Below are positions 27,185-52,350 of a stretch of 64,000 bases of DNA, piece by piece; the stretch's first letter is position 1, and the number at the start of each line of letters is the position of its first letter. Made by a program: the position numbers and the translations under genes. The stretch is from a virus. A model generated the notes under the pieces. It had not been told where the DNA came from. It was given only the letters and a program-made list of their open reading frames with translations, and made no database searches. The DNA lies in the IMG/VR virus record IMGVR_UViG_3300047157_000197, positions 124,001 through 188,000 of that record; one strand, 5' to 3'.

Positions 27185-27192
27185 TATTTATA
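27185..27192 (+). promoter_or_regulatory. TATTTATA motif, candidate late promoter for tube gene
   Basis: TATATTTATA is placed 26 bases before the tube ATG in the 58-base sheath-tube gap. It would allow separate high-level transcription of the tube gene, which ends in its own terminator at 27741. Confidence 0.55.
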
Positions 27193-27218
27193 GTAGAATA
27201 TAATTAGGAGAAAACAAA

Positions 27219-27710
27219 ATGGCAGAAGTATTAGAATTTAACGATATGTTTTATACCAACTTCGAACCGAAGATGAAGAATAGATTCATCATGGAAATCG
27301 ATGGTATCCCTTCATATCTTATAAAAACAGCAAATAGACCTTCAATTCAGTTTGAAACTATTACCTTAGACCACATTAACGTTAAAAGAAAACTTAAAGG
27401 AAAAGGTGAATGGCAAGATATAGAGATTACTCTATATGACCCAATCGTTCCTTCAGGTGCTCAAGCAGTAATGGAATGGGTGAGAACATCTCACGAATCT
27501 ATTACAGGTAGAGATGGATATGCAGATTTCTATAAGAAAGATATCCAATGTTACCTATTAGGACCAGTTGGTGATAAAATTGAACAATGGACTATGAAAG
27601 GTGCATTTATCAATAATGCAGTGTTTAATGATTTAGATTGGTCAAACGCGACTGATCCTGTTGAAATTACTTTAACACTATCTTATGATTATGCAATATT
27701 AGAATATTAA
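27219..27710 (+). CDS. Tail tube protein (gp19-like)
   Basis: This 163-residue protein has the usual length and pattern of the T4 gp19 family: KNRFIMEIDGIPSYLIKTANRPSI, ITLDHINVKRKLKGKGEWQDIEITLYDPI, GAQAVMEWVRTSHES, YADFYKKDIQCYLLGPVG and a C-terminal DPVEITLTLSYDYAILEY. It polymerises as hexameric rings inside the sheath. It follows the sheath gene and has its own promoter-like motif and terminator. This is consistent with the high copy number needed for a tail tube. Confidence 0.96.
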   Translation: MAEVLEFNDMFYTNFEPKMKNRFIMEIDGIPSYLIKTANRPSIQFETITLDHINVKRKLKGKGEWQDIEITLYDPIVPSGAQAVMEWVRTSHESITGRDGYADFYKKDIQCYLLGPVGDKIEQWTMKGAFINNAVFNDLDWSNATDPVEITLTLSYDYAILEY

Positions 27711-27740
27711 TACTCCCAAAATATATTTTTATAAAGAAAA

Positions 27741-27767
27741 AAGTTCTCTTAGTGAGAACTTTTTTTG
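27741..27767 (+). terminator. Rho-independent terminator after tail tube gene
   Basis: AAGTTCTC (27741-27748), loop TTAGT, GAGAACTT (27754-27761), then a T-run to 27767. It is a clear intrinsic terminator 30 bases after the tube stop. Confidence 0.95.
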
Positions 27768-27800
27768 TGTCTTTATTTTTCTAATTTTTTAAAAGTTATA

Positions 27801-27808
27801 TATTTATA
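27801..27808 (+). promoter_or_regulatory. TATTTATA motif, candidate late promoter for baseplate operon
   Basis: TATATTTATA lies between the tube terminator and the ATG at 27832 (23 bases). A terminator followed at once by this motif argues strongly that it is a promoter. Confidence 0.6.
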
Positions 27809-27831
27809 TACAAACAAATAAATTAAATGTT

Positions 27832-28599
27832 ATGGCAAATTATGAATTTCCAACTGAAATTATAGACCTTCCATCAAAAGGTAAGGTTTACTCACCAGAA
27901 AACCCATTATCAAAGGGTACGGTGGAGATTAAGTATATGACTGCTCGTGAAGAGGATATACTTGCTTCCCAAAATTTGATAAGGAAGGGGGTGGTGCTCG
28001 ATAAACTCTTTGAATCTGTTGTAGTAGAAGAAGGTGTAAATATTGACGATATTTTAATCGGTGATAAAAACGCAATTCTCTTAGCAACCCGTATTTTAGG
28101 ATATGGTAAAGATTATCAAGTAGATATAACCGACCCATTCTCAGGCGAACAACAAAAAACAAATATTGATTTAGCTAAAATACAAATCAAAGAAATAGAT
28201 AGTACTCTTTTAAATTCAAATAACAAATATGAATTTGAATTACCAATTGCAAAGAAAAAGATAGTCTTTAAACTATTATCACATAAAGATGAAAAAGATA
28301 TTAATGCTGAAATACAAGCACTTAATAGATTAAGTAAAGATAAAGATGGCGTAAGTAGTGAAATAAGTACTCGTTTAAGATATATGATAGAAGAGATTGA
28401 GGGTAACAATGATAGAGGATTCATTAATAACTTTGTTAAGAATAATTTATTAGCAAGAGATTCAAGAGTATTAAGAAACTATATACAACAAATTAGTCCA
28501 GATTTAGAATTAAAATTTGATTTTACTTCAGATTTAACAGGAGAGAAGGAGGCTCTTGATATACCATTAGGTGCCGGGTTTTTTTACCCTTCCGAATGA
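27832..28599 (+). CDS. T4-type baseplate protein (gp26-like family)
   Basis: This 255-residue protein opens with FPTEIIDLPSKGKVYSPENPLSKGTVEIKYMTAREEDILASQNLIRKGVVLDKLFES, the pattern of the T4 baseplate family that includes the hub-assembly protein gp26 (LPSKG-Y-NPL-G-I-YMTA-EE). Later elements are IGDKNAILLATRILGYGKDY and NNFVKNNLLARDSRVLRNYIQQISPD. It lies between tube and tape-measure genes, as expected for a tail-assembly factor. The last 29 bases overlap the small frame at 28571 in the +1 frame across a run of seven T, discussed as a possible recoding site. Confidence 0.85.
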   Translation: MANYEFPTEIIDLPSKGKVYSPENPLSKGTVEIKYMTAREEDILASQNLIRKGVVLDKLFESVVVEEGVNIDDILIGDKNAILLATRILGYGKDYQVDITDPFSGEQQKTNIDLAKIQIKEIDSTLLNSNNKYEFELPIAKKKIVFKLLSHKDEKDINAEIQALNRLSKDKDGVSSEISTRLRYMIEEIEGNNDRGFINNFVKNNLLARDSRVLRNYIQQISPDLELKFDFTSDLTGEKEALDIPLGAGFFYPSE

Positions 28600-28807
28600 T
28601 TATAGTCTCCAACTACATAATCAAATTTGGGAAATGGTTAACTTCGGTAATGGATTTACTTGGGCAGAGGTTTATACAATGCCTATTCATTGGAGAAGAT
28701 TCTATTTCAAAAAACTAGTAGATAGTAAAGCAAAAGAAAAAGCAGAATACGATAAAAGTAGTAAAAAGAGTGGTTCTAAAGGACCAAATGTAAGAGTGAG
28801 GAAATAA
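28571..28807 (+). CDS. Small overlapping tail-assembly frame (possible +1 frameshift product)
   Basis: This 78-codon frame is open from GTG 28571, overlapping the end of the gp26-like gene. Convincing sequence begins around NDYSLQLHNQIWEMVNFGNGFTWAEVYTMPIHWRRFYFKKL, just past the upstream stop (28597-28599). The overlap holds GGGTTTTTTTACCC, and SD-like GAAGGAGG lies about 20 bases before. Either the GTG is a weak start by translational coupling, or a +1 shift (on TTT or at the UGA) fuses it to the baseplate protein, as tail-assembly chaperones do by frameshift in many phages. The highly charged C-terminus ends in KGPNVRVRK. The stop codon falls at the base of the terminator loop. Confidence 0.7.
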   Translation: MPGFFTLPNDYSLQLHNQIWEMVNFGNGFTWAEVYTMPIHWRRFYFKKLVDSKAKEKAEYDKSSKKSGSKGPNVRVRK

Positions 28808-28824
28808 TTCCTCACTTTTTTTTT
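28795..28824 (+). terminator. Rho-independent terminator overlapping a stop codon
   Basis: AGTGAGGAA (28795-28803), loop ATAA, TTCCTCACT (28808-28816), then T to 28824. The TAA stop at 28805-28807 lies within the loop, so the ribosome finishing the small frame would cover the hairpin. Confidence 0.93.
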
Positions 28825-28830
28825 ACCCTA

Positions 28831-28838
28831 TATTTATA
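28831..28838 (+). promoter_or_regulatory. TATTTATA motif, candidate late promoter for tape-measure operon
   Basis: TATATTTATA follows the terminator by six bases and lies 27 bases before the ATG at 28866. It repeats the terminator-then-motif arrangement seen at 27741-27808. Confidence 0.6.
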
Positions 28839-28865
28839 TAAGAACAATTATATAGGAAAAGCACT

Positions 28866-29099
28866 ATGTCTAAAAATAAAATAAATGAAAATATGCTATC
28901 TCGTTTCTTTGGAGATGTATTCGATAATTTAAGAGATGGAACTGCTGATAGGTTTATCAGTAAGGTAAGAAAAAGAAAATTCCCAAAAGAAATTGTTGAC
29001 TCTTTAGAAAAATTAAAAAAAGATAGAGAAGATTTAGCAAAATCTATTGAAAAATACAATAAGCAAGCACAGAAGTTAGGTAAAGATAAAATAAAATAA
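28866..29099 (+). CDS. Small charged helical protein before tape measure
   Basis: This 77-residue protein is not recognised. It opens with NENMLSRFFGDVFDNLRDGTADRFISKVRKRKFPKE, then a lysine-rich helix, IVDSLEKLKKDREDLAKSIEKY. It is the first gene of the operon that carries the tape measure, which starts 13 bases after its stop. The position suggests a minor tail or tail-assembly protein. No catalytic motif is visible. Confidence 0.65.
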   Translation: MSKNKINENMLSRFFGDVFDNLRDGTADRFISKVRKRKFPKEIVDSLEKLKKDREDLAKSIEKYNKQAQKLGKDKIK

Positions 29100-29112
29100 C
29101 TTAAGGTAAACA

Positions 29113-31719
29113 ATGGCTGGAGAAAAAAGCAGATTACAATTATTAAAAGAGATTAAAGCTAAGGAACAGGAAATAGCTAAATTCGCTCTTGATAATGACC
29201 TGCGCTTTAAAAAAAATAAAGTAGAAGCACTTAAGTTAGAAGCGGATTCAATTGCATTAAAAAAAGAATCTGCAAAAATACTTGAAGATAATTTAAAAAC
29301 ATTTGCATCATCAGAAAAAAGTATAAGTCGTATAAGTAATAGTTACCGAGATTTTAAAAATCAACAAAAAGAAACAAATGATTTAGCCAAATCATTGGGA
29401 GACGATATAACTCCTCAACAAGCCAAAGGAATAGCTGAAGTACTCTCACTTTCACGAGATTTATCAGAACTTAATATTGAAGATACAATACAAATAGAAG
29501 CAGCAACAAACGAAATAGATAATAAAATAGCTAATCTTCAAAAAGTATTAAAACTAAACGATAAAGTACTTGACTCTCTTAAAAAACAAAATATAGCAAG
29601 TGGTAATATTGCTAAATCAACTAAAGAAGAAAAAGAGTCATTAAAAGCAAGTGATAAAGCATCCGAACAACTGAAAGAAAAGTTTCAAGGTATATCAGAA
29701 ACTTTAGAATCTGCAGCAAGACAAGTCTTTAACATTTTTGGTTTTCTAGGATTAGCTTTTGCAGCTGCAGGAAAATTTGCAGGAAAAATTGCAGAAACTA
29801 ATAGAGAAATAGGTAATGTTGGTGGAGGATTGGGTAATCTTTCCTATGAAGTTGGATTACTGAGTTTGTATTTTGATAATACAAATGAAGGCCTTAAAGC
29901 ATTTTCACAAGAGTTTGGAAATATACCATCAGAAAGAGTTCTTGAAGATACACTCTTAATATCAAAAAATATGGGAGTATCGGCAACCGATGCTGCTAGA
30001 TTACAACAAAACTTTGCTGGAGTAAATGGTGGTTCAAAGGATATTGCTAATAATATGCTTAAAACCACTCAAGAATTTGCTAATCAGAATAATCTTATAC
30101 CATCACAGTTGATGGCTGATTTAGCAGCAAATACTGAACAGTTTGCATTGTTTGGAAAAGATGGTGGAAAAAATATATTAGCTGCAGCAGGATATGCAGC
30201 AAAACTTGGTGTATCAATGTCCCAAATTGCAGGAATAACAGATAATCTGTTAGATTTTGAATCATCAATAACTAAAGAATTAGAACTTTCTGCTATGTTA
30301 GGTAAAAATATTAACCTAAGTAAAGCTAGAGAACTTGCGTATGCGGGTGATTTAAAGGGAGCAACTCAAGAAACATTAAGACAACTCGGTGGAATATCTG
30401 CATTCAATCAAATGGATTACTACCAAAAGAAACAAACTGCAGACTTGTTAGGAGTTACTGTTGAACAGTTTAAAAAAATGGCAACCAATCAAGGTCAAGC
30501 CAATGATATGACTTCAATAGGAGTTTCTCAATTCGATAGTATGGGTGAAATGATAGCTAATATTGGTAATAGTTATATACCTACAATATTAACAGGAATA
30601 GCTGGATTCCTTACTTTAATGGCATTAGCAAATAAAAAAACTGGCATATTAGGAAAAATGTTTGGTGGTATTGGTAATGCAGTAGGTGGAGCAAAAGATA
30701 AACTTCTTGCAATGGTATCGGGAGGAAAAGGACCAACTGGACCACTTACAAAAGGTGGTGGACCTGATATGAGATTTAAAACAAATAAACAAAGTTCAGG
30801 TGGATTAAAATCTCTAGCAGAGGGATTAAAAGCAATGGGTAATCCTAAAGTTCTCTTCGGAGCACTTAACCTAATACCAACCGCATTAGGTATGGTTGCA
30901 ATGATAGCAGCGATACCAGGTATGTTAGGAGTAGGATTAGTCGGTGGAATGGCAGGAACTGGTTTACTTTCATTAGCACCTGGTTTAAACGCTATGTCCA
31001 CCACATTTAGTGGTATTGGTGCTTTAGCCTTATTAGGACTTGCTGGAATAACAATGATTGCTGGTTCCGTAGGTTTAGGATTACTTGGACCAGCTGGAAT
31101 AGCAGCTGCAGCAGGTCTAGCAGCATTAACACCGGCATTAGAAGCACTAGGAGCAGCAATGGCTACTGGATTAGGTGCTCTTGGTTTAGCAGCTTTAATT
31201 GCAATGGGTGTTGGTATGGGTGCAAGTTTTGCATTAATCGGAGTTGGAGCAATGGCGATGGGTAAAGGAATACAATACGCAGCACAAGGATTCTCAACTT
31301 TATTACCTACAATATCCGCATTCATGGAGGGTATAAATTTAGAAAAAGTAGGAGAACTTTATCTATTTTCAATAGCTATTGCTGGATTAGCAGGTTCAAT
31401 GCTTTTATTAGGAGCATCACTAGCATTTTTAGGAGCTGCAGGTTTACCAGGATTAGCAATGTTAGCTGGAATTGCTGCATTATCTGTACCAATTATAAAA
31501 TTGGCATCTATGTTAGGAATCGGTGGTGAAAGTTCTGAGGAAACATCAGCAATAGAACAAGGTGGAGAATCATTAGAACAACAAATGTTAAATCAGTTAA
31601 AATTAATGACCTCTGCTCTTGAAAAAGGACATATAATAAAAATGAACGGTCAGACGGTTGGTAAAACAATTTTTAGTAATGAAGATAATAATCAAATGCA
31701 ATCTACTGCAATAAACTAG
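29113..31719 (+). CDS. Tail tape-measure protein (gp29-like role)
   Basis: This is an 868-residue protein. Residues 1-200 are charged coiled coil (LQLLKEIKAKEQEIAKF, KVLKLNDKVLDSLKKQN). A hydrophobic segment (NIFGFLGLAFAAAGKFAGKI) sits near 207-226, a helical middle follows, and about residues 490-800 are Ala/Gly/Leu-rich with several membrane-like stretches (GLGLLGPAGIAAAAGLAAL, MLLLGASLAFLGAAGLPG). This layout is typical of myovirus tape-measure proteins, which set tail length and leave the tail during DNA entry. It lies between tube/assembly genes and the tube-initiator and hub genes. The sequence itself diverges from T4 gp29, so the call rests on architecture and order. Confidence 0.85.
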   Translation: MAGEKSRLQLLKEIKAKEQEIAKFALDNDLRFKKNKVEALKLEADSIALKKESAKILEDNLKTFASSEKSISRISNSYRDFKNQQKETNDLAKSLGDDITPQQAKGIAEVLSLSRDLSELNIEDTIQIEAATNEIDNKIANLQKVLKLNDKVLDSLKKQNIASGNIAKSTKEEKESLKASDKASEQLKEKFQGISETLESAARQVFNIFGFLGLAFAAAGKFAGKIAETNREIGNVGGGLGNLSYEVGLLSLYFDNTNEGLKAFSQEFGNIPSERVLEDTLLISKNMGVSATDAARLQQNFAGVNGGSKDIANNMLKTTQEFANQNNLIPSQLMADLAANTEQFALFGKDGGKNILAAAGYAAKLGVSMSQIAGITDNLLDFESSITKELELSAMLGKNINLSKARELAYAGDLKGATQETLRQLGGISAFNQMDYYQKKQTADLLGVTVEQFKKMATNQGQANDMTSIGVSQFDSMGEMIANIGNSYIPTILTGIAGFLTLMALANKKTGILGKMFGGIGNAVGGAKDKLLAMVSGGKGPTGPLTKGGGPDMRFKTNKQSSGGLKSLAEGLKAMGNPKVLFGALNLIPTALGMVAMIAAIPGMLGVGLVGGMAGTGLLSLAPGLNAMSTTFSGIGALALLGLAGITMIAGSVGLGLLGPAGIAAAAGLAALTPALEALGAAMATGLGALGLAALIAMGVGMGASFALIGVGAMAMGKGIQYAAQGFSTLLPTISAFMEGINLEKVGELYLFSIAIAGLAGSMLLLGASLAFLGAAGLPGLAMLAGIAALSVPIIKLASMLGIGGESSEETSAIEQGGESLEQQMLNQLKLMTSALEKGHIIKMNGQTVGKTIFSNEDNNQMQSTAIN

Positions 31720-38368: not shown

Positions 38369-38416
38369 TGACCCTTATTTAGAATTAATATAAATTAAAA
38401 AATAATTGACTTTTTA

Positions 38417-38448
38417 TTAGGTTTTCTCATACTTTTTTCGTATATTTA
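38417..38448 (+). promoter_or_regulatory. Bacteroidota-type promoter (TTAG-N20-TATATTTA)
   Basis: TTAG (38417-38420) and TATATTTA (38441-38448) are exactly 20 bases apart. The leader that follows (38449-38467) is almost the same as those after the 47447 and 48197 boxes. It drives the LPD29-like gene at 38484. An upstream 21-base block (38374-38394) is repeated at 47377-47397. Confidence 0.7.
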
Positions 38449-39404: not shown

Positions 39405-41398
39405 GAGTATTTGAAGAAATCCAAAAACTTTCAAATCCCTCTAACAAAAAATTAACAGATGTTGATATAATAAAGTTAGATAGGGATTCTGATGTTATAT
39501 TTGTATTGTTACCTGAGTGGGCTCCAAATCTACCTCCTTATAATATAGCAAGATTATCATCGATAATAAATCAAGCTGGTTATAAATCATCATGTCTTGA
39601 TTTAAACATTGAAACTTATCAAGAATCAAAGAAATGGAAAAAAGAATTGGGAATTGACCCATATAATCCAAATAATCTAAATAAGTGGGCAATAAGTGAA
39701 TATGAAAAATATCTGGCACCAACTATAAATCCATTTTTAGATAAATGGATTGAAAAAATAGTAGAAATAAACCCAAAAGTACTAGGGTTTACTCTGTATT
39801 TTTGTAACTCAGGTCCTGTAGATTATGTAGTAAAAAAATTAAGAAAAAGATTACCAAACTCAACTTTTTTTGCTGGTGGACCTGATTTATCACAAATTAA
39901 AGATAAAATCAAAAATGGTGAAATGTACTGTGATGATAACGATACTCCTTATTTTGATTATGGTATTCTTGGAGAATCTGAAATTATATTATTAGATGTA
40001 CTTGAAGAAATAGAACAAGGTGTTGAGCATAAAGGAATGAAAATTCTTACTCAACCTATTAAACAAAGAATTAATCTAAATAACTTTCCATTACCAAATT
40101 ATGAAAACTTTGATTTTTCTAAATATAAAATATCAGATGGAGCATTAACAGAACTAAGTAGAGGTTGTACTGCAAAATGTACATTTTGTTCAGAAACACA
40201 TTTTTGGGAATATAGACAAAGAAATCATACTTCGGTTTTAGATGAAATACAATATCTTTATGATAAAGGAGTACGAATAATATGGTTTGTTGATTCATTA
40301 GTAAATGGAAATCTAAAAGAATTAAAAGAATTTGCACAAGGAGTTATTGATAGAGAATTGGATATAAAATGGCAAGGATATGCAAGATGTGATGGTAGAA
40401 TGGATTATGAGTATTTAAAATTACTTAAAGATTCTGGTTGTCATTCATTATCCTTTGGTGCTGAATCTGCTAGTGATAAAGTTTTAAAAGATATAAACAA
40501 AAGAGTTACTAACTCTGAAATGGAACAAAACTTTAAAGATTGTAATAAATTAGGAATTCATATATTTTCAACATGGATTACATCATTTCCAACAGAAGAT
40601 ACTGAAGATTTTATAGATACTCTTGTTTTTTTAAATAGAAACACAGTAGATTCTATTTTTTTAACACCAGGATTTCAACTTACAGATGATTCAATAGTTG
40701 GCCAAAACTTTGAAAAATTTGGATTAGCACCTTTTAGTTATAATGGTGGTTGGATTAAAGATGATTATTCCTACACAAAACCACATATATTAACAAGAGC
40801 AAAACTATTTGATATATTTGCTAAAGAATGTACAGATATAATTACATGGGATAGACCATTACTTTCAAAAATGTATAATATCTCTTTTAATAATAAATTA
40901 AATAAAAAAATAGATTATTATAGAACTGATATTAATGTATTTAAAAAAGATAATAATAACTTTAAAAATAATTTGTTACTTGAGCCTTTTTATGTATTTC
41001 ACTTAATGTGGAAAATAAAAGGAGGTTTTGAAATAAATTTAAAATTTGATAAAGATATAGATTACCAAGAATATGGAAATGTATTAGAAACAAATTACTG
41101 GTCAGATTTTTATTTTAAAATAGATGATAGTGGTAATTGGGAAACAAAAATAAAATCTAAATTTGAACAAGTACCAAATGCATTTAACTTTATTGATTAT
41201 TCTCAGAGAAAATCTCCCACAATAGAAAGAGCCAGAGTTCACGCAAAACCAAAATGGAAAGATGGCAGTAGAACTGTTGCTGAAATTAAAGAAGGTTTAA
41301 AAACTGAAAATTACTTAAATAAAACAAAAGATTTTACATTTAAGTTTGATTGGGAAGGTAGTGGATATTGGGGAGAAAAAAAGAAAAACTTATTTTAA
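39389..41398 (+). CDS. B12-binding-domain radical SAM enzyme
   Basis: This 669-residue protein has a cobalamin-binding-type N-terminal Rossmann domain (DVIFVLLPEWAPNLPPYNIARLSSIINQAGY, LGFTLYFCNS, STFFAGGPDLS). It is followed by a radical SAM core with the cluster motif Cys260-x3-Cys264-x2-Cys267 (RGCTAKCTFCSE). Further core elements are DKGVRIIWFVDSLVNGN, CDGRMDYEYLKLLKDSGCHSLSFGAESASDKVLK and TWITSFPTEDTEDF. This matches class B radical SAM enzymes (methyltransferases, MiaB/hopanoid-type families). The C-terminal ~200 residues are not recognised and may bind the substrate. The substrate is unknown; modification of a peptide, tRNA or glycan are all possible. The start overlaps the preceding gene. 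Confidence 0.85.
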   Translation: MESALRVFEEIQKLSNPSNKKLTDVDIIKLDRDSDVIFVLLPEWAPNLPPYNIARLSSIINQAGYKSSCLDLNIETYQESKKWKKELGIDPYNPNNLNKWAISEYEKYLAPTINPFLDKWIEKIVEINPKVLGFTLYFCNSGPVDYVVKKLRKRLPNSTFFAGGPDLSQIKDKIKNGEMYCDDNDTPYFDYGILGESEIILLDVLEEIEQGVEHKGMKILTQPIKQRINLNNFPLPNYENFDFSKYKISDGALTELSRGCTAKCTFCSETHFWEYRQRNHTSVLDEIQYLYDKGVRIIWFVDSLVNGNLKELKEFAQGVIDRELDIKWQGYARCDGRMDYEYLKLLKDSGCHSLSFGAESASDKVLKDINKRVTNSEMEQNFKDCNKLGIHIFSTWITSFPTEDTEDFIDTLVFLNRNTVDSIFLTPGFQLTDDSIVGQNFEKFGLAPFSYNGGWIKDDYSYTKPHILTRAKLFDIFAKECTDIITWDRPLLSKMYNISFNNKLNKKIDYYRTDINVFKKDNNNFKNNLLLEPFYVFHLMWKIKGGFEINLKFDKDIDYQEYGNVLETNYWSDFYFKIDDSGNWETKIKSKFEQVPNAFNFIDYSQRKSPTIERARVHAKPKWKDGSRTVAEIKEGLKTENYLNKTKDFTFKFDWEGSGYWGEKKKNLF

Positions 41399-41430
41399 TT
41401 AGGATATTAAAAATAAATTTCGTATATTTG
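41399..41430 (+). promoter_or_regulatory. Bacteroidota-type promoter (TTAG-N20-TATATTTG)
   Basis: TTAG (41399-41402) is followed after 20 bases by TATATTTG (41423-41430), identical in the 10 preceding bases to the promoter at 55659. It lies 7 bases before the ATG at 41438, so the transcript would have a very short or no leader. Confidence 0.75.
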
Positions 41431-41437: not shown

Positions 41438-41575
41438 ATGAATAAAACAGATTTAACACAACAAGATGGAATGTATTATGTAGGACACTTAATCGATATC
41501 GATGGAAGTGGTTATGTAGATGCAGAAACTGCAGAACTTATCCTATTAGAACATAATGCAGGAGTTACTGAATGA
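41438..41575 (+). CDS. 45-residue protein overlapping the polymerase start
   Basis: The frame from ATG 41438 encodes MNKTDLTQQDGMYYVGHLI... and ends in ...HNAGVTE with TGA 41573-41575. It overlaps the ATG of the next gene (ATGA), which is typical translational coupling. It is directly behind a host-type promoter. It is acidic (DIDGSGYVDAETAELIL) with a calcium-loop-like DIDGSGYVD stretch, perhaps by chance. Function unknown. Confidence 0.65.
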   Translation: MNKTDLTQQDGMYYVGHLIDIDGSGYVDAETAELILLEHNAGVTE

Positions 41576-42828
41576 TTATAGTAGAAACTAATAAAGAGAA
41601 AGAACAATTTCTCGAATATTGGAATAACGAAGAATCTAAGATTATTCCGATTTGGGAAGATTTGGATAGACATCCTATGACTAATGGGTTGTCATTTTTG
41701 TATGTCCGATTCTCAAACTTAGATTTTATACTACCATTTAATCACAATGATTGTGAAAAGTTAGAAATAGATTTATCAACCTCGAATCAAACAAAGTGGA
41801 TTTGGAACAAAAAAGGATTTCTCCAAACCGATATTAAGATAAATAACCTAAAAGATGTGCAAACTTCTTTATTCTTTGAGAAATTCCAATTATATGATAT
41901 ACAATCGAAATTAGAGGGTTTAACGAGTTTTTACTATCGTTTGGGTATAAGAGATGGTTTGGGTAAGAGTATCTCTATAATGAAGTGGAGTGAAGTACTA
42001 CGAGGTATATGTGATGAATGGGATATAAAACATACAAATCTTTGGGTGGATGAAACGATGATTCCTCTTTTATCAGATATCGAGAGAAAAGGCATTCAAG
42101 TCGATAGGGAAAAATTTTTTGATAGATGGCCAGATAATAAGAAATCTTTATGGTTCTCACATACATTCACCGAGTACAATCCATACACGATTACATCAAG
42201 ACCTTCCAATAGACATTTAGGTATCAATTATGGTGCATTAAACAAATCCGATGGTAGTAGGGGAGTATTCGTTCCAAAGAAAGGAAAGTTGTTCTTACAA
42301 TTCGATTACGATGCATATCATGTTAGGATTATTGGTAAGTTGATTAAATACAAACTACCCGATACTTCGGTTCACCAATGGTTAGCAGACCAATATGGTT
42401 GTGATTATGGGGAATCCAAAGGAAGAACGTTCCGTATCTTATATGGGGGAGTATCCGATGAAGATAGAAAAATACCATTCTTTGATAAAGTAGATAAGTT
42501 TATTTACAAGATGCAAGAAGAGAGTATTCGAAATGGGTATCTACAAACTCCAAAAGGAAGAAAGATTCCTTTAGAGTGGATTGAAAACCCCAACTCTCAA
42601 AAGTTCTTCAACTATATTCTTCAAGCGACTGAAACTGAATTCAATATTGAGGTAATGAATAAGTTGAAAACGTTGCAACTTCCTCTACCTATTCTTTATA
42701 CTTATGATTCATTCTTATTTGAGTTTGATGAAACCGAGGTAGAAACTATTAAATTAGTTAAATCCGTTCTCGAAAGTTATGGATTTCCTGTCAAAGCCGA
42801 TTGGGGGAGTGATTACTCAAAAGTTTAA
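41572..42828 (+). CDS. Short, divergent family A DNA polymerase
   Basis: This 418-residue protein has the three palm/fingers motifs of family A polymerases in order. Motif A is FLQFDYDAYHVRII (catalytic Asp245; Arg in the usual place). Motif B is SKGRTFRILYGG (Lys283, Arg288, Tyr291-Gly). Motif C is TYDSFLFEF with Asp379 kept but His and Glu of HDE replaced by Tyr and Ser. IERKGIQVDREKF before motif A resembles the thumb/palm entry (E-GI-vd). There is no recognisable 3'-5' exonuclease, and the first ~160 residues are unassigned. It is much shorter than the usual 550-900 residues. A role in replication or repair is likely. Whether it is the main replicase cannot be told from this window. Confidence 0.75.
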   Translation: MIIVETNKEKEQFLEYWNNEESKIIPIWEDLDRHPMTNGLSFLYVRFSNLDFILPFNHNDCEKLEIDLSTSNQTKWIWNKKGFLQTDIKINNLKDVQTSLFFEKFQLYDIQSKLEGLTSFYYRLGIRDGLGKSISIMKWSEVLRGICDEWDIKHTNLWVDETMIPLLSDIERKGIQVDREKFFDRWPDNKKSLWFSHTFTEYNPYTITSRPSNRHLGINYGALNKSDGSRGVFVPKKGKLFLQFDYDAYHVRIIGKLIKYKLPDTSVHQWLADQYGCDYGESKGRTFRILYGGVSDEDRKIPFFDKVDKFIYKMQEESIRNGYLQTPKGRKIPLEWIENPNSQKFFNYILQATETEFNIEVMNKLKTLQLPLPILYTYDSFLFEFDETEVETIKLVKSVLESYGFPVKADWGSDYSKV

Positions 42829-42836
42829 TATTTATA
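42829..42836 (+). promoter_or_regulatory. TATTTATA motif, candidate late promoter for nuclease gene
   Basis: It directly follows the polymerase stop and lies 25 bases before the ATG at 42862. It suggests that the nuclease is expressed with virion genes. Confidence 0.5.
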
Positions 42837-42861: not shown

Positions 42862-43473
42862 ATGAAATTATTTAAAATATTACTGCTATCATTCATCTTG
42901 TGGGGATGTGAAGCAGAATCAATTGTTGCACAAGAATTAAGACAAGAAGTTATTGTTGAAAATGCAGTATTCAAAGTTTGGTACAATGAAGTAAAAGAAC
43001 AACCAGTAAAATTAGTTTATACATCTACTAATAGACCAAAGAATGTAGATAGAGGTTCAATGAACTTTTATAATGAATCTGATTATCATACATCTGATAA
43101 TGCTGATTATTATGCAAATGTTTGGGATAAAGGACATCTTGCTCCAGCAGCAACTTATTCTGATTCTAAAGAAAATCTACGACAAACATTTTCGTTTTTA
43201 AATTGTGCTTTACAAGACCAGTACCTTAATAGAGGTGAGTGGAGATTATTAGAAGAACAAGAAAGAAAATGGGATGATGAACAAAATTTAAGAATTGTAG
43301 TTGAACTAGTATGGGAAGATGGATATGAAATACTACCAACAGGTGGACATATTCCAACTACAATGATAAAAACAATTTACTTTGAAAACGACGGTACTTG
43401 TAGAAAATTTGTATTTCCAAATCAAAAACCAACTCAAGGTTGGGAAGAATACGAGGTAACTTGTACAGACTAA
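42862..43473 (+). CDS. Lipoprotein-type DNA/RNA non-specific endonuclease
   Basis: This 203-residue protein begins with a lipoprotein signal peptide (MKLFKILLLSFILWGC, lipobox LWGC, Cys16). The mature part is a beta-beta-alpha-metal nuclease of the NucA/EndoG type: VWDKGHLAPAAT with Asp89-Lys-Gly-His92 in place of DRGH, then FSFLNCALQDQYLNRGEWRLLE with the metal-binding Asn in the usual context. Catalytic His is kept. Such nucleases degrade DNA and RNA outside the cytoplasm. A phage lipoprotein version might block superinfecting DNA or degrade host or environmental nucleic acid; that is inference. Late-type motifs stand before it and after it. Confidence 0.85.
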   Translation: MKLFKILLLSFILWGCEAESIVAQELRQEVIVENAVFKVWYNEVKEQPVKLVYTSTNRPKNVDRGSMNFYNESDYHTSDNADYYANVWDKGHLAPAATYSDSKENLRQTFSFLNCALQDQYLNRGEWRLLEEQERKWDDEQNLRIVVELVWEDGYEILPTGGHIPTTMIKTIYFENDGTCRKFVFPNQKPTQGWEEYEVTCTD

Positions 43474-43481
43474 TATTTATA
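43474..43481 (+). promoter_or_regulatory. TATTTATA motif, candidate late promoter
   Basis: It overlaps the end of the nuclease gene region and lies 19 bases before the ATG at 43501, the shortest usual spacing in the set. Confidence 0.5.
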
Positions 43482-43500: not shown

Positions 43501-43905
43501 ATGGCTTTCAACTTTCCTGATGGAGCATCAAACGGAGATACACATACAGCAAGTAATGGTACAGTTTATATTTACAATGGAACAACATGGTTAGTTGATT
43601 CAGTAACCACTACAACAAACTTCGATACAAAATATCTAAATACAAATGGTGATGGAATTTTAAGTGGTTCTGTGACTGACCAACTTCCAAGTGGAGTAAT
43701 TAGTGGAAGTTCTCAAATTACAATTACTGAATCACAAATTTCAGATTTATCACATACAACTTTACCAAGTGGATTAGTTAGTGGTTCATCTCAGTTAGAT
43801 GGATTTGTAAGTTCATCTTCAACAAATATTATAGAAGTAATGACATCTGCATCTTATGATGCAATTACACCAGTTAGTGGTACTTTATATATTATACAAG
43901 GATAA
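43501..43905 (+). CDS. Short tail-fibre protein
   Basis: This 134-residue protein starts with FNFPDGASNGDTHTASNGTVYIYNGTTWLVD, a common N-terminal element of phage fibre proteins. Two SGSSQ units (LPSGVISGSSQITITESQIS, SGLVSGSSQL) follow, the same as in the giant fibres at 10404 and 20314. A short domain ends in SGTLYIIQG. It is two bases before the LamG-like gene, so the two probably form one adhesin module away from the main fibre cluster. Confidence 0.8.
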   Translation: MAFNFPDGASNGDTHTASNGTVYIYNGTTWLVDSVTTTTNFDTKYLNTNGDGILSGSVTDQLPSGVISGSSQITITESQISDLSHTTLPSGLVSGSSQLDGFVSSSSTNIIEVMTSASYDAITPVSGTLYIIQG

Positions 43906-44813: not shown

Positions 44814-44821
44814 TATTTATA
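44814..44821 (+). promoter_or_regulatory. TATTTATA motif seven bases before an ATG
   Basis: The motif follows the LamG-gene stop. The nearest ATG (44829) is only seven bases away, so a transcript from here would be leaderless or use a later start (for example the ATG at 44922). Confidence 0.45.
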
Positions 44822-44828: not shown

Positions 44829-46865
44829 ATGGATTATAAAAAAGTAATAGATAAGTTAGTAAGAGAACTCTCATATAGGGTAGGAATTCCCAATATAGAA
44901 AATAAGGACCATCAATCAATCATGTCTGAAATTCTTTCAGAGTGGGGTGAGTATGATGTAAAAGAAAAAATCTTTGAATTTCTTACTGAAAAAGATGAAA
45001 AATTTAATGCAACAAGTAAAAAGAGTGGTGAAACTGTAACATTCCAATCAAAAAAAGCAAGAGAGGATGCAATAGAAGCAGGAACCCACAAACTTATTGA
45101 TAAAAAAGATGATGATACTCAAACTACACAAGGTAGTGCTTTAAAAAGTAAATCTTATCAAAAAGTAGTTGATAAAGAAGAAGAAACTCGGAAAAAAATT
45201 GATGGTGAAGATGATAATAACCAACAACCTGAAAACGATGAAGAAAGAAAAGAAGAACTGAGAAGTAAAGATGAAGAATTAGTAAATACTCAACTTTTCT
45301 TATATGAAGGTGATGACCAAGATGCGGGAGGTCTTGGAACTCCTGAATCAAGAACTGGTGAAACAGTAACAGTTTATGCTGGTACAAGAATAAAACAACT
45401 CATGGCAGATGGAAAAATGGATTATAAAACTGCCAGAGAACAAGTAAGACAAGAATTACTTGAACACACAAAATCCAAAAAAGGTGGTAAAAAGGCACTC
45501 TTAACAAAAGAATGGGTAGAGTCAGGCCTAAGATGTTTAGATTGGATTAATGAAAATTATGATATAGATGAGGTTGAAAATTTGGCATGGGATACACCTG
45601 AAGGAAATGAATTAGTAGGTTCAACTGGTCATGGAACTTCTGCTGATATGTTTATAAAAACAAAAGATGGAAGAACAATTGGTATTTCTCTTAAAAAAGA
45701 TTTTAAAGTTTTTGTTTTCAATGGTGGATATGATAAAAATATTGAAAAATTTGCAGAAAGTTTGGGATTATCGTTGGATGAATTACCAGATGAACTTCAA
45801 TATAAAGGAAACCCTAAATCATATAAATCAAAAAGAGAAAAAATATTTGAAGAAAGATTTGAGTTATTCAATAATGATGATGTAAAGAAAAAAGTTTGTG
45901 AAAATATAGAAAAGGCAAAATCAAGTGATGAAGGATATATAGAAGTATTTGCTAAAAGAACTTTAAAAAATAAAAAGAGATTAAATTTAATTGCAAAAAA
46001 TGCAGGTAAAGATATTTCTGATATAACTTGTGATGATTTTTATAACTTTGTTTTAAATAAACCAAATAAAACCAATGACGATAAAGCAGTTATTTATGCT
46101 TTTGCACAATATGATTCTGAAATTGAAAAGGGAACTAATGGATTATATTCAGAAACAAGAAAATTAGATAAACAACAGAGAGATGCTTTTTATAGTTTTG
46201 TAACAACACAACCTTACGAGGACAAATTTAAAGAAGTAGTTGCAGAACATACTCATATTGATGATGTTTTGTTTGGAACAAAGGGAGACCAATTAGATAA
46301 ACTTGAAGTTGTATATGGAGAACCACCAGCGGGTGAATCCATGAAAAAAGAAGCTTTAGTTGCTATGTTTGATTTGGGAGATTTATATGAAGAATATGAA
46401 AATGAAAAAGACCCACAGAAAAAACAAGAACTTCAAGATGAAATAAAAAGAAAGTATAAGGAAAAAATGATAATTGATAAAGAATCAAATCCACCGAGAA
46501 TTGGTGTATTGATTGCTAATCCTGTTCCTCCACCAGATACTTCAATTCAACCTCTATTCACTTTAGGAGTTAGAGCTAAGGGTATTACCGCGGCACCTGC
46601 ATTAGAAATGGGACAAACTGCTTTTGGTGGATTGTGTTTTAAAAATGGAACTGTTGATATAAACAAATGGCCTGATGAAGATAGAAAGAAATTTGTTGAT
46701 AGCGAAGTTAAGAGAATACAAGAAGATTTTGATGATGATTTCATAGATTATACAAACAAAAGTGAAGTTGAAGAATTAATATCTTATTTAGAAAGATTAG
46801 ATAAATTAAAATCTGTACCGAAAACTAAAAGGTTAATGGATTTAATAAAATCAAAACAACAATAA
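44829..46865 (+). CDS. Large acidic protein with PD-(D/E)XK-like motif
   Basis: This is a 678-residue protein. Residues 1-230 are charged and low-complexity. At about residues 258-285, EGNELVGSTGHGTSADMFIK is followed by DGRTIGISLKKDFKVF. The spacing of Glu, Asp and the S-L-K-K strand fits the PD-(D/E)XK nuclease core as seen in restriction-endonuclease-like families. The C-terminal part (IGVLIANPVPPPDTSIQPLFTLGVRAKGITAAPALEMGQTAFGGL) forms a separate beta-rich domain. Possible roles are a nuclease used on host DNA or a virion-packaged protein expressed late. The nuclease call is moderate; the rest is unknown. Confidence 0.55.
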   Translation: MDYKKVIDKLVRELSYRVGIPNIENKDHQSIMSEILSEWGEYDVKEKIFEFLTEKDEKFNATSKKSGETVTFQSKKAREDAIEAGTHKLIDKKDDDTQTTQGSALKSKSYQKVVDKEEETRKKIDGEDDNNQQPENDEERKEELRSKDEELVNTQLFLYEGDDQDAGGLGTPESRTGETVTVYAGTRIKQLMADGKMDYKTAREQVRQELLEHTKSKKGGKKALLTKEWVESGLRCLDWINENYDIDEVENLAWDTPEGNELVGSTGHGTSADMFIKTKDGRTIGISLKKDFKVFVFNGGYDKNIEKFAESLGLSLDELPDELQYKGNPKSYKSKREKIFEERFELFNNDDVKKKVCENIEKAKSSDEGYIEVFAKRTLKNKKRLNLIAKNAGKDISDITCDDFYNFVLNKPNKTNDDKAVIYAFAQYDSEIEKGTNGLYSETRKLDKQQRDAFYSFVTTQPYEDKFKEVVAEHTHIDDVLFGTKGDQLDKLEVVYGEPPAGESMKKEALVAMFDLGDLYEEYENEKDPQKKQELQDEIKRKYKEKMIIDKESNPPRIGVLIANPVPPPDTSIQPLFTLGVRAKGITAAPALEMGQTAFGGLCFKNGTVDINKWPDEDRKKFVDSEVKRIQEDFDDDFIDYTNKSEVEELISYLERLDKLKSVPKTKRLMDLIKSKQQ

Positions 46866-46930: not shown

Positions 46931-46938
46931 TATTTATA
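46931..46938 (+). promoter_or_regulatory. TATTTATA motif, candidate late promoter
   Basis: It is 29 bases before the ATG at 46968. The remaining 46866-46930 gap holds a C-run (GCCCCC) and a near-copy TATATTTATTAA but no clear terminator. Confidence 0.45.
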
Positions 46939-46967: not shown

Positions 46968-47369
46968 ATGCAAACCCAGTTACTTTGTACTTTTACTACA
47001 AAAGAAGAACTTAAAACTACCTTACAGCTTATAAGAGAAACCTATCATATAGTGTACAACTATATTTATGTTCTTCAAAATAAGGGTAATTTAGAGGAGT
47101 TGTTCGTTACCTATAATATAGATACTTCTATTAAACCAGAAACACCATTAAAGGATACTATCTTAGTACACCGAAAAAAACAATCTAATACTCTTTATAC
47201 AATCAATGCACTTAACGAATTAGTTAAAGAAGAAAATGGTGGTGTATTAGATAAAAAATTCACAATTGATTGGAATAAATTCAAAAACTCAATTATCGTT
47301 ACCAATGTAGAAGGTACAAAGAAAATTTCTACACGAATCTTCGAGGTAATAGAATTCAACAAAAAATAA
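46968..47369 (+). CDS. Unknown 133-residue protein
   Basis: The sequence is well-formed and globular: MQTQLLCTFTTKEELKTTLQ, YIYVLQNKGNLEELFVTYNID, ILVHRKKQSNTLYTINALNELV, NGGVLDKKFTIDWNKFKNSIIVTN. I do not recognise the family with certainty, though its regularity suggests a conserved phage protein. It is a single gene behind a late-type motif, before the run of small host-promoter genes. It has no signal peptide or catalytic motif. Confidence 0.65.
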   Translation: MQTQLLCTFTTKEELKTTLQLIRETYHIVYNYIYVLQNKGNLEELFVTYNIDTSIKPETPLKDTILVHRKKQSNTLYTINALNELVKEENGGVLDKKFTIDWNKFKNSIIVTNVEGTKKISTRIFEVIEFNKK

Positions 47370-47421: not shown

Positions 47422-47454
47422 TTGACTCGTATTGCTTTTTTTTCACTATATTTA
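47422..47454 (+). promoter_or_regulatory. Bacteroidota-type promoter (TTGAC then TATATTTA)
   Basis: TTGAC (47422-47426) and TATATTTA (47447-47454) are followed by a leader nearly the same as at 38449 and 48205. It drives the small genes 47493-48144. Confidence 0.65.
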
Positions 47455-47918: not shown

Positions 47919-47943
47919 AATATAAATCTTAAAATATAAAAAT

Positions 47944-48144: not shown

Positions 48145-48172
48145 AATTTTAACATAAATTTAACACTTTTTA

Positions 48173-48204
48173 TTAGGAATTGTGGTTTATTTTTCGTATA
48201 TTTA
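48173..48204 (+). promoter_or_regulatory. Bacteroidota-type promoter (TTAG-N20-TATATTTA)
   Basis: TTAG (48173-48176) and TATATTTA (48197-48204) are 20 bases apart. The following leader repeats the one after 38448 (same ACTATGTAAATAATTAATAA). It drives the operon from 48240 onward. Confidence 0.7.
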
Positions 48205-48239
48205 CTATGTAAATAATTAATAACATAAACTTTAAAACT

Positions 48240-48548: not shown

Positions 48549-48553
48549 AAAAT

Positions 48554-49058: not shown

Positions 49059-49059
49059 A

Positions 49060-49854: not shown

Positions 49855-49867
49855 TTTTGTATATTAG
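49836..49867 (+). promoter_or_regulatory. Degenerate Bacteroidota-type promoter
   Basis: TTTG (49836-49839), 20 bases, then TATATTAG (49860-49867); its sequence closely resembles the promoter at 51814. It overlaps the end of the glycosylase gene. It may be a weakened copy of the real promoter at 49929. Confidence 0.4.
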
Positions 49868-49928
49868 TAGCTTCAAATGTGAAAGTTTTACATTAATTAC
49901 TCCAAATTTAAAAAAAAATACAAATAAA

Positions 49929-49960
49929 TTTGGAATTGTAAAAATAATTTCGTATATTTG
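49929..49960 (+). promoter_or_regulatory. Bacteroidota-type promoter (TTTG-N20-TATATTTG)
   Basis: TTTG (49929-49932) and TATATTTG (49953-49960), 20 bases apart. It lies inside what would be the N-terminus of the 49857 frame, so translation must begin later. TCCAAATTTA (about 49900) and TAAATTTGGA (about 49926) also make an inverted repeat around it. Confidence 0.75.
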
Positions 49961-49979
49961 TATAAATAAATTAAGAAAA

Positions 49980-51707
49980 TTGAGATTTAACAATCTAAAC
50001 GCCCTAGCAGAAGCAAAGTACGCAACGGCCGTAGGAAAGTTGGACAACCCTACACAACAGAAGGTCCAGTCATTTATTAACGAACAAATCGAAATCGAAA
50101 TGAAGTCGATGAGTGACGTGTTATCTGCAACACAACAACAAAATCAGAAACTACAATTCAATCCATTAAAGTTATGGTTTGAAGGTATAACCAACATTCC
50201 ACTAGGAGTGACCGATATCTACTTCGATATTGAGAAGGTTAAGAACAAGGGATATGAAATCCACATCAGACAAGTTGGACCAGGAACAACACTTGAGACA
50301 ATTAACGGTAATTTACTTGACTCCAAAACGGTTGAATCACAAGTATTCATTCGTAAGGATAACAAATCAGGCTCAATCTATGGGTCTGGTATTGGTACAC
50401 AGTCCCAATACACAAGTAAACTTATCTACAAAGTTAAAACCAAAGGAATGGATTCATTCCATTGTTGGGATGTATTAACCGGTAAAACTTGGTTTGATGA
50501 TAAATTATCTCACGAGAGTGGGGTAATTATCGAGATGTTTGTACCATACTCTCAAAAAATGGTTAGTTATGAAAGATTTATCGATGATTTAAGATGGATG
50601 ATTTCTTTCTACGATAACAAAAACCTTGTTGGGAACAATAGTAGAACCTATCATATTGAAGCTCAAGGTTTCGATACTGGTGGTAATGATAGATTATCCT
50701 TACCAATTCACCCAACTGCAACCAATTGGGTACAACCAGATGGTAAGATTACAAAGATTCCATCATACACACACCTTACTTTAAATAAGAAAGTTTTTAA
50801 GGAACTTCCTATAATTGTTCCACATGATGATGGTGACAAGACAGTTTTACTTACAAACTTTAAGTTTGGTAAAAGAGCTGATAATTACAGAAAATCAGCT
50901 GGAGGTGAACAATGGAAAATCCCATCAAAGATAACTGGTGATATTCCTCAACTAATTGTTTACTATAAAGATTCTAAACAAATAGCGTTTACATTACCAC
51001 TTAGAGGAAACTCTGGTTTAACATCCCTTAACAATGTTACTTTAGAATGTGAAATAGCAAAGGATGATTTAAGACCCTTCTTTACTTCAACTGATAAGTT
51101 CGGTGATATTCAAGGAGTACTTAAAGCAACTTTATTCAATGAGTTAAGACAGTATCTGTTAGATAGATATCCAGATAATGATTTACTAGAAAGAGCAGTT
51201 CAACTATGGTTGTATGCTGTAATCGTTAATGATTTTGGTGGTAAGAATAACGCTAACAATCTTAGAAATTATTATGGTTGGGGATTCTTAAATAATATGA
51301 CTCCACTCAAAAGAACCAAATTCGTAATAATGGAATATGATTCAGATGAAGGTAGACAGGATTTTAGAATCTTTCTCGTTGGTGATACCAATAATAAGAT
51401 TACTAAGTTTACTAAGAGTTGTATTATTGAAGTAAAGAGAAGTGATTTCAATAGAAGAGATACTAATCAATCAATGGGTTACATTACAACGACAGTTAAC
51501 GCAACACAAATTGTTGGAGTTTCATTAAACATCAAAACAAAGAATGATAAATTATTTAAAGAATTCTTTGCTAAAGCGAATGGAACAGGTCAGTTAACAA
51601 GTGATATCAAGTATGATTTGATGGAAGTTGCTGATTGGGGATTCGAGGACGATGTTAAAGATTCGTTTACTTCTGAGGCTTTGGTTGAAAAAAACAGTAA
51701 GAAATAA
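49980..51707 (+). CDS. Unknown 575-residue protein, probable TTG start
   Basis: The long frame opens at 49857, but the host-type promoter at 49929-49960 lies inside it. The first useful start after it is TTG 49980 (LRFNNLNALAEAKYATAV), 20 bases downstream of the box. The protein continues PTQQKVQSFINEQIEIEM, LWFEGITNIPLGVTDIYFDIEKV, RKDNKSGSIYGSGIGTQSQYTSKLIY, RTYHIEAQGFDTGGNDRLSL and KRTKFVIMEYDSDEGRQDFRIFL. I do not recognise it. The Gly-rich GSIYGSGIGTQSQYTS could be a nucleotide loop, but no full GHKL or P-loop set is present. It is between repair and replication genes and has its own promoter, which suggests a DNA-metabolism role. Confidence 0.65.
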   Translation: MRFNNLNALAEAKYATAVGKLDNPTQQKVQSFINEQIEIEMKSMSDVLSATQQQNQKLQFNPLKLWFEGITNIPLGVTDIYFDIEKVKNKGYEIHIRQVGPGTTLETINGNLLDSKTVESQVFIRKDNKSGSIYGSGIGTQSQYTSKLIYKVKTKGMDSFHCWDVLTGKTWFDDKLSHESGVIIEMFVPYSQKMVSYERFIDDLRWMISFYDNKNLVGNNSRTYHIEAQGFDTGGNDRLSLPIHPTATNWVQPDGKITKIPSYTHLTLNKKVFKELPIIVPHDDGDKTVLLTNFKFGKRADNYRKSAGGEQWKIPSKITGDIPQLIVYYKDSKQIAFTLPLRGNSGLTSLNNVTLECEIAKDDLRPFFTSTDKFGDIQGVLKATLFNELRQYLLDRYPDNDLLERAVQLWLYAVIVNDFGGKNNANNLRNYYGWGFLNNMTPLKRTKFVIMEYDSDEGRQDFRIFLVGDTNNKITKFTKSCIIEVKRSDFNRRDTNQSMGYITTTVNATQIVGVSLNIKTKNDKLFKEFFAKANGTGQLTSDIKYDLMEVADWGFEDDVKDSFTSEALVEKNSKK

Positions 51708-51721
51708 CATAAGTTATAAAA

Positions 51722-51765
51722 GAGATAGAAACGCATTCCGAAAAAAAGTAAGAATGCGTAATCTC
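51722..51765 (+). other. Two-part hairpin after the 49980 gene
   Basis: GAGAT and ACGCATTC (51722-51726, 51731-51738) pair with GAATGCGT and ATCTC (51752-51759, 51761-51765), giving an 8-base stem extended by 5 bases across a small internal loop. AATTTT follows. It could be a terminator or a stable RNA end. It lies in the 157-base gap before 51865. Confidence 0.55.
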
Positions 51766-51813
51766 AATTTTAAAAGAAAATTAAAAACAACTAAATAAAT
51801 AAATTATAAAATA

Positions 51814-51845
51814 TTTGGATATAATAAAATAATTTTGTATATTTG
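51814..51845 (+). promoter_or_regulatory. Bacteroidota-type promoter (TTTG-N20-TATATTTG)
   Basis: TTTG (51814-51817) and TATATTTG (51838-51845), 20 bases apart; the ATG follows 19 bases later at 51865. Confidence 0.75.
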
Positions 51846-51864
51846 TATAAATAAAATTTAAATA

Positions 51865-52293
51865 ATGAATAAGATAATAAAAAAAGAAAGTAAAAACCAC
51901 AAATTTAACCCAATTAAAGTAGAACCCCAATATGATGAGGTTATTGCATATGATAATCCAAAAGTGGTTGAGGAAATGGAAAAACAATGGCCTGAAATGA
52001 CGGCAGAGTTTAAAAGAATTATGTTTACACAATATGAATTATTTTGTTTAAAACAATCTAACTATGGACCAGATAATATTTCGGTTGGTAGTAATTTAGA
52101 AACAGAACAAGAAAAGAAAGTATCTCTTACAGGTCTTTGGTTTAGAATGAATGATAAAATTCAAAGATTAAAACAATTAGTTGTATTAGGTAAACAAGAT
52201 AATATAGGTGAATCATGTGAAGATACCTTCCAAGATTTATCAGTATATGGAATCATTGCTCAACTCGTTTCAAGTGGAAAATGGGCTAAGTAA
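51865..52293 (+). CDS. DUF1599 / nucleotide-modification-associated protein
   Basis: This 142-residue protein has FKRIMFTQYELFCLKQSNYGPDNISVG, LTGLWFRMNDKIQRLKQLVV and GESCEDTFQDLSVYGIIAQLVSSGKW. This is the pattern of the DUF1599 (Nmad1-type) family, which is found near nucleotide-modifying enzymes in phages. The biochemical role is not established. It sits alone between two promoters just upstream of the SSB gene. It could link to the thymidylate-synthase-like gene at 62572. Confidence 0.8.
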   Translation: MNKIIKKESKNHKFNPIKVEPQYDEVIAYDNPKVVEEMEKQWPEMTAEFKRIMFTQYELFCLKQSNYGPDNISVGSNLETEQEKKVSLTGLWFRMNDKIQRLKQLVVLGKQDNIGESCEDTFQDLSVYGIIAQLVSSGKWAK

Positions 52294-52342
52294 AATGTTA
52301 ATAAGTAATCATAAAAATTCGGTGGTTTTTGTGATTTCTTTA

Positions 52343-52350
52343 TATTTATA
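52343..52350 (+). promoter_or_regulatory. TATTTATA motif upstream of SSB gene
   Basis: TATATTTATA lies 79 bases before the ATG at 52430, giving a leader with a hairpin (52359-52380). The long leader is different from the virion genes. Confidence 0.45.

Follow-up and report, generated by a model that had tools for sequence, protein, structure and literature searches.

The window analysed here is a stretch of 64,000 nucleotides that spans positions 124001-188000 of a phage contig of 275,970 bases (an IMG/VR virus record, hereafter G000), with virion genes of the T4-like contractile-tail phage type (tail sheath, tube, hub and tape measure). Its closest cultured relatives are Flavobacterium phage immuto (vB_FspM_immuto, Immutovirus), whose host is Flavobacterium sp. 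LMO8, and phage Mel-JY01, for which Microcystis is listed. The octamer TATTTATA recurs in the window ahead of genes, and the question raised by this locus is whether this word is a phage late promoter and, if so, which factor reads it.

The octamer in the window and in the whole contig

The initial annotation had listed 14 positions of TATTTATA, all of which we could confirm. At ten of them (6445, 16238, 23016, 24389, 27185, 27801, 28831, 42829, 43474 and 46931) the next ATG does lie 19-34 nt away, and an intrinsic-terminator-like hairpin directly precedes 27801 (stem 27736-27766) and 28831 (stem 28792-28819). The list was nevertheless selective, as it omitted in-gene copies on the + strand (15386, 22896, 32914, 34259 and 35548) and four copies on the - strand of the window. 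The description of the motif as standing before virion genes is true of the tail genes and fails at 42829, which precedes a nuclease gene, and at 52343, which precedes a gene for a single-strand DNA binding protein. The sites, named late boxes after their proposed role, and the two hairpins are as follows (window coordinates):

6445..6452, + strand: late box TATTTATA, 30 nt before the ATG of 6483-7073
7092..7099, + strand: late-box-like TATTTATA, a weaker case, 142 nt before the ATG of 7242-7919
10313..10322, + strand: late box TATATTTATA, 81 nt before 10404-15566
16238..16245, + strand: late box TATTTATA; the tail fibre gene 16274-20194 follows after 28 nt
23016..23023, + strand: late box TATTTATA, at the 3' end of ORF 22036-23031; the ATG of 23044-24363 follows after 20 nt
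24387..24396, + strand: late box TATATTTATA, ahead of 24431-24736 and of the tail sheath gene 24809-27160; present in 72/72 relatives
27183..27192, + strand: late box TATATTTATA, 26 nt before the tail tube gene 27219-27710; TATATTTAT in 77/77 relatives
27736..27766, + strand: intrinsic-terminator-like hairpin, preceding the late box at 27799..27808
27799..27808, + strand: late box TATATTTATA, 23 nt before the baseplate hub gene 27832-28599; 62/62 relatives
28792..28819, + strand: intrinsic-terminator-like hairpin, preceding the late box at 28829..28838
28829..28838, + strand: late box TATATTTATA, 27 nt before 28866-29099, which is followed by the tape measure gene 29113-31719; TATTTATA in 19/19 relatives
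42829..42836, + strand: late box TATTTATA, 25 nt before the nuclease gene 42862-43473
43474..43481, + strand: late box TATTTATA, 19 nt before 43501-43905
44814..44821, + strand: late-box-like TATTTATA, only 7 nt before the ATG of 44829-46865
46931..46938, + strand: late box TATTTATA, 29 nt before 46968-47369; the immuto orthologue has a box too
52341..52350, + strand: late box TATATTTATA; the gene for the single-strand DNA binding protein, 52430-53233, follows after 79 nt

In the window taken alone the excess of TATTTATA is modest (23 copies vs 14.3 expected, both strands; 1/100 shuffles), and the noncoding DNA of G000 is 73% A+T, two observations that would suit an explanation of the motif as a composition effect of AT-rich intergenic DNA. 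The whole contig, with 322 gene calls (321 on the + strand) covering 92% of it, speaks against this. There are 65 + strand copies of TATTTATA on G000 and 44 lie between genes, where Markov models of order 1-3 of the same noncoding DNA expect 6-7.4; an order-4 model, in which the motif is already partly learnt, expects 13. The reverse complement of the octamer, which is the T4 box TATAAATA, is not enriched in this noncoding DNA (10 copies vs ~10 expected). A comparison of frequencies inside and between genes, proposed along with the initial annotation, gave densities of 2.09/kb between and 0.082/kb inside genes on G000 (~25-fold), and a 40-fold difference in 209 related loci. The usual element in G000 is the ten-base form TATATTTATA, with 28 noncoding copies vs ~1 expected; its reverse complement occurs just twice in noncoding DNA. 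A reversed-pattern control, ATATTTAT, was equally enriched in G000; it is no independent control, both words being part of the extended element TATATTTATATA. De novo enrichment of 8-mers upstream of gene starts placed TATATTTA and TATTTATA among the leading words, plus TTTCGTAT as a separate word.

Distances from box to start in G000 cluster at 17-34 nt, with a full spread of 3 to 169 nt, and are blurred by our own gene calls, in which the start is the first ATG. The spread bears on another explanation, in which the motif would be an RNA-level element of late leaders, such as a processing site or a translation enhancer, and no promoter. Its location in 5' leaders agrees with such a role, as does the presence of Shine-Dalgarno-like leaders in late genes of G000. 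The wide range of distances to the ATG, the position of two window boxes directly 3' of terminators, where a new start is needed, and the way in which the motif mirrors early promoters in position and composition argue against an RNA element, and we regard it as very unlikely.

The likeness to the reverse complement of the T4 late box, which the initial annotation had emphasized, was not a useful guide. In register, TATTTATA and TATAAATA differ only at -10/-9, where TT replaces the AA of the T4 box, and the reverse-complement likeness is a coincidence, since this central change happens to yield it. A promoter on the opposite strand, that is, a true T4 box, was ruled out: TATAAATA is at background, and the lack of genes on that strand excludes such a promoter in practice.

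Host-type early promoters and the distinctness of the late class

The TATATTT sites of G000 split into two groups, an early and a late type. Sites of the early class, which was selected for a -33 element, have TTTGG or TTAGG ~20 nt upstream, usually TTTCG beside the box, and TATATTTG or TATATTTA as the box itself; on G000 they precede primase, helicase, PolB, clamp, exonuclease and endonuclease genes. In the window we noted the following:

38416..38448, + strand: early promoter, host type; TTAGG (-33), -7 box TATATTTA
41398..41430, + strand: early promoter, host type; TTAGG (-33), -7 box TATATTTG
47422..47454, + strand: early promoter, host type; TTGA at -33, -7 box TATATTTA
48172..48204, + strand: early promoter, host type; TTAGG, -7 box TATATTTA
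49928..49960, + strand: early promoter, host type; TTTGG, -7 box TATATTTG
51813..51845, + strand: early promoter, host type; TTTGG, -7 box TATATTTG
55658..55690, + strand: early promoter, host type; the DnaB-like helicase gene 55714-57078 lies downstream
62050..62082, + strand: early promoter, host type; TTTGG, -7 box TATATTTG

The early class matches the Bacteroidota sigma-A promoter (-33 TTTG, -7 TAnnTTTG) and, judged by sequence, the predicted early promoters of G000 are the canonical Bacteroidota promoter, confined to early and replication genes. The late class (TATATTTATA or xTATTTATA) differs from it in a box that ends in ATA and in having no -33 element, TT[TA]G being about as frequent at -33 in late sites (9%) as in random noncoding sites of G000 (8%). 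Upstream of the late sites there is a weak T-rich bias and no activator-like element. The two classes are also distributed differently along G000: the structural block at 82-162 kb holds 16 late promoters and no early one, vs 28 late and 26 early elsewhere (p=2e-4). E. coli-type sigma-70 promoters were rejected as candidates, the 18 found in 24000-29300 being fewer than in shuffles (27.9). The likeness of the motif to the host -7 box, also pointed out in the initial annotation, holds to the extent that very little separates the late box from the early -7 box (TATATTTG/A).

The late boxes might then be host sigma-A promoters, with a -7 box and no -33 element, activated late by a phage activator or appropriator as in the middle-mode logic of T4, with no phage sigma. 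The late box has TATATTTA in common with the early -7 box, TATTTATA is one position from TATTTGTA, and sigma-A of Flavobacterium (F. psychrophilum) reads a -7 box TAnnTTTG at -12 to -5 (PMC9723704). We consider activated host promoters unlikely on three counts: in G000 the bias upstream is weak, without an activator-like element, and the -33 signal is at background; in immuto the early box is TATATTTAGG vs a late TATTTATA that is often without the leading TA; and both phages have kept a gp55-like sigma, described below, in the same position.

These early promoters also bear on the host of G000. Among bacterial genomes we found only one contig encoding the same sigma, in a Saprospiraceae (Bacteroidota) MAG; this contig and the Bacteroidota-type early promoters make a Bacteroidota host likely.

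Conservation of the late box in related phages

In the tail sheath loci of ~80 environmental relatives the flanking bases vary and the box before tail genes is almost invariant: the hub box is found in 62/62 and the pre-sheath box in 72/72 relatives, and the tube box is exact in 66/77 and reads TATATTTAT in 77/77. Across 209 loci (2.4 Mb) there are 360 non-redundant noncoding copies of TATTTATA vs 13 of TATAAATA, and 272 of 350 noncoding copies stand at 17-45 nt from an ATG. Strand bias is seen in five other sigma-holding phage contigs (35:1, 24:3, 1:20, 11:0 and 0:7). A composition artefact is refuted by the counts on G000, the footprints in relatives and the counts in the 209 loci, and we give it practically no credence.

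Immuto, whose proteins are mostly 25-58% identical to those of G000, shares with it the late box, the virion genes, the sigma family and the sigma neighbourhood. In this phage TATTTATA is the best upstream 8-mer (24/30 copies upstream), has 27 noncoding copies vs 4 expected, and precedes the terminase, portal, sheath, tube, hub and tape measure genes. For 65 pairs of G000 and immuto orthologues, the late box is present in both members of 7, in only one of 4+7 and in neither of 47 (p=0.001), half of the orthologous late sites thus being found again in immuto. The early promoters of immuto, unlike those of G000, have GTTG at -33 with the box TATATTTAGG; TTG is somewhat commoner at the -33 place in immuto than in the background (30% vs 14%), which speaks against the proposed late class. 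Mel-JY01 has 17 noncoding copies of TATTTATA vs 5-6 expected.

Two other genomes do not follow this pattern. LR756508 has the sigma (44% identical), and TATTTATA is not enriched in the 100 kb examined. Rhodothermus phage RM378 has a box very similar to the late box of G000, TATTTAAA, before head and tail genes, closer to the ATG (mostly 5-15 nt before it); its annotated sigma is phrog_1740, of a family that is not that of the G000 sigma, and the two sigmas gave no alignment. Similar boxes may therefore have arisen with different sigmas.

A candidate gp55-like sigma factor and the replication clamp

The initial annotation had suggested searching the rest of the genome for a gp55-like sigma, and a candidate was found outside the window, at G000:41988-42761. 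A direct search of G000 with T4 gp55 (phrog_234) gave no match. Immuto gp118 matches phrog_234 weakly but in full register (E=0.008, residues 5-117, HMMER) and has one clear homologue in G000, the product of G000:41988-42761 (38% identical, E=2e-41). The gene has the same neighbourhood in both phages, upstream of a late-box gene, and in G000 its cluster lies behind an early promoter at G000:41092. Profile-profile comparison of the sigma family with the gp55 family aligned 100 co-linear columns with a single-pair E-value of 0.0015. In an AlphaFold2 model of the G000 protein (pLDDT 77, pTM 0.44), helices resembling sigma domain 2 are followed by a helix-turn-helix at the C-terminal end. Sigma factors, including T4 gp55 (7d7c_F), make up most of the top 50 fold matches in the PDB, sigma-E region 2 is among the fold matches (TM 0.71), and those in a viral structure library are likewise mostly sigma factors. 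The best Foldseek E-value against the PDB is 0.03, and with none below it the case for gp55 homology is the agreement of several weak signals. Pfam sigma models did not match the candidate, and PDB sequence searches returned nothing with the protein and only a weak TrpR-like HTH match with its profile. On this sequence and model evidence, G000:41988-42761 probably encodes a remote gp55-like sigma factor, with homology below usual database significance.

In T4 gp55, A(-12) is recognized by Y97, A(-9) by N13 and H95, and A(-8) by T99, and the residues that bind the clamp helices of RNAP are E70, D74 and E77 (PMC7892883). Three profile alignments, together with an independent one made by MAFFT, were used to map these residues. 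The DNA contacts correspond to Y93 (for Y97, invariant), G14/F91 (for N13/H95) and T95 (for T99), the residues for -12 and -8 in sigma domain 2 being conserved; of the RNAP-clamp contacts (E70 to D67, D74 to E71, E77 to S74) two of three are kept. The late box keeps A(-12) and A(-8) and has T for A at -9 and -10, and the predicted picture is one in which changed -9 contacts accompany a changed box while the -12 and -8 contacts are kept. Like T4 gp55, the sigma has an acidic-hydrophobic C-terminal tail in G000 and most relatives (e.g. NPYIDNEYL), which MAFFT aligns with SLDFLYE/NLDNFYE of the T4 family; it is absent from the immuto and Mel-JY01 sigmas. Unlike T4 gp55, the G000 sigma carries ~100 extra residues with a helix-turn-helix. 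A gp33-like protein, present in T4, was sought in G000 by its C-terminal tail pattern only and gave no candidate; speculatively, the extra C-terminal domain of the sigma could occupy the place of gp33.

The idea put forward in the initial annotation, that a sigma of the phage reads the motif as a late promoter, is well supported by location, strand bias, spacing, conservation, the lack of a -33 element and the gp55-like sigma gene. As in G000, the T4 late promoter is an 8-bp box without a -35/-33 element, before virion genes (PMC2988020, PMC7892883); the boxes themselves differ (TATAAATA in T4, TATTTATA in G000). We are fairly confident that TATTTATA (TATATTTATA in G000) is a T4-type late promoter core, probably read by the phage gp55-like sigma, with early genes served by host promoters. 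The host holoenzyme would transcribe the early genes, leading to production of the phage sigma, which would displace sigma-A on the host core RNA polymerase and open promoters through recognition of the box alone, at about -13 to -6, with starts 6-8 nt further on. In G000 the sliding clamp would aid the polymerase via the sigma tail N-P-Y-I-D-N-E-Y-L, like S-L-D-F-L-Y-E of T4 gp55. The difference from the T4 box at -10/-9 would have arisen because the -9 pocket changed (T4 N13/H95 to G14/F91), with the pockets for -12 (Y97 to Y93) and -8 (T99 to T95) kept. The pairing of sigma and box is what we infer from these data. A different, unrecognised phage factor might read the late promoter, the gp55-like protein having another role, and this would fit RM378, where a similar box is paired with an unrelated-looking sigma, and LR756508, with the sigma and no box in the parts read. 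We hold this to be improbable, as no other sigma was found with PF04542, PF04545, phrog_1740 and phrog_12791.

A paper on a jumbo lineage lists a sigma factor, without a promoter for it (PMC12619734), and we found no description of a late promoter for Bacteroidota phages in the open-access literature, an absence that is no proof. The box variant, which very probably follows T4-type late promoter logic, is not described in the open-access literature searched. It would provide a concrete late promoter and a candidate sigma for a large, mostly uncultured group of aquatic Bacteroidota phages, allowing late genes to be called by sequence alone in hundreds of environmental contigs with the box. The changed box and changed contact residues would amount to a natural experiment on a minimal sigma reading a -10 element, and the cultured relative immuto, with Flavobacterium sp. 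LMO8, makes the system testable.

As for the T4 gp55-gp33-gp45 system, a polymerase, a sliding clamp and loaders are also present in G000: a family B polymerase gene (G000:191173-193395), an adjoining gene for a PCNA-fold protein (193478-194191; model pLDDT 62, Foldseek E=6e-9), and clamp-loader genes at G000:199627-200577 and 201087-201536, with homology to the annotated loaders of Mel-JY01. The clamp was missed by a genome search with phrog_947 and then supported by hmmscan, synteny, homology and fold. In immuto, PolB, clamp and loaders were not detected, nor, unlike in G000, were bS21 and Shine-Dalgarno-like late leaders. Activation by the clamp may not be general, since no clamp was found in immuto; sigma and box appear to persist there, where the clamp seems gone. 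Tentatively, and as a possibility that we would not yet call probable, the T4-type sigma/promoter system may have outlived the clamp, late transcription in immuto being uncoupled from the replication clamp and G000 adding a translational layer of Shine-Dalgarno-like late leaders and bS21. If true, the apparent loss of the clamp in immuto asks whether the coupling of late transcription to replication known from T4 is dispensable.

Bacteroidota ribosomes normally ignore Shine-Dalgarno leaders. On G000, such leaders were found in 18/43 late genes vs 39/279 other genes, and G000 has a gene of its own for ribosomal protein bS21.

Leaders of late genes and bS21

In G000, the phage contig that holds the window, Shine-Dalgarno-like leaders are found at 18 of the 43 genes preceded by the late box (the proposed T4-type late promoter motif) versus 39 of the 279 other genes, with a position peak at -13 to -11. 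The same genome encodes ribosomal protein bS21.

G000:116788-116946, outside the window: bS21 gene (PF01165 match, 7e-13)
Window 27206-27213: Shine-Dalgarno-like late leader, example

Phage bS21 has been linked to late replication in earlier work (PMC9723584), where no mention of a connection with late promoters turned up. Of the nearest cultured relatives, Flavobacterium phage immuto gave no match in a search for bS21 and has such leaders in none of its 25 late-box genes, while Mel-JY01 encodes bS21 and has frequent Shine-Dalgarno-like leaders that show no late specificity.

Upstream motifs in other phages

In Rhodothermus phage RM378 (NC_004735), TATTTAAA is strongly enriched upstream of genes (27 of 35 copies). 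Since it lies mostly 5-15 nt ahead of the ATG, on either strand, its position suggests that late mRNAs of this phage are nearly leaderless. The 484-kb phage LR756508 carries a sigma of the G000/immuto family, and TATTTATA was not enriched in the portions of its genome examined.

Early promoters, polymerases and a host label

Several early promoters of G000 share TATATTTACTATGTAAATAA, a long near-identical stretch that extends into the leader and looks as if it had been copied around the genome.

Window 38441, 47447 and 48197: early promoters with TATATTTACTATGTAAATAA
G000 24664, 232158 and 247587: early promoters with TATATTTACTATGTAAATAA

Window 41572-42828 is probably an orthologue of divPolA1, a divergent family A polymerase reported for immuto and relatives (PMC11348598), and coexists with a regular PolB encoded elsewhere in the genome. 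Finally, Mel-JY01 (PP395634), deposited as a Microcystis phage, has virion genes, sigma, clamp set and late box in common with Bacteroidota-type phages including G000, and the host assigned to it may merit re-examination.
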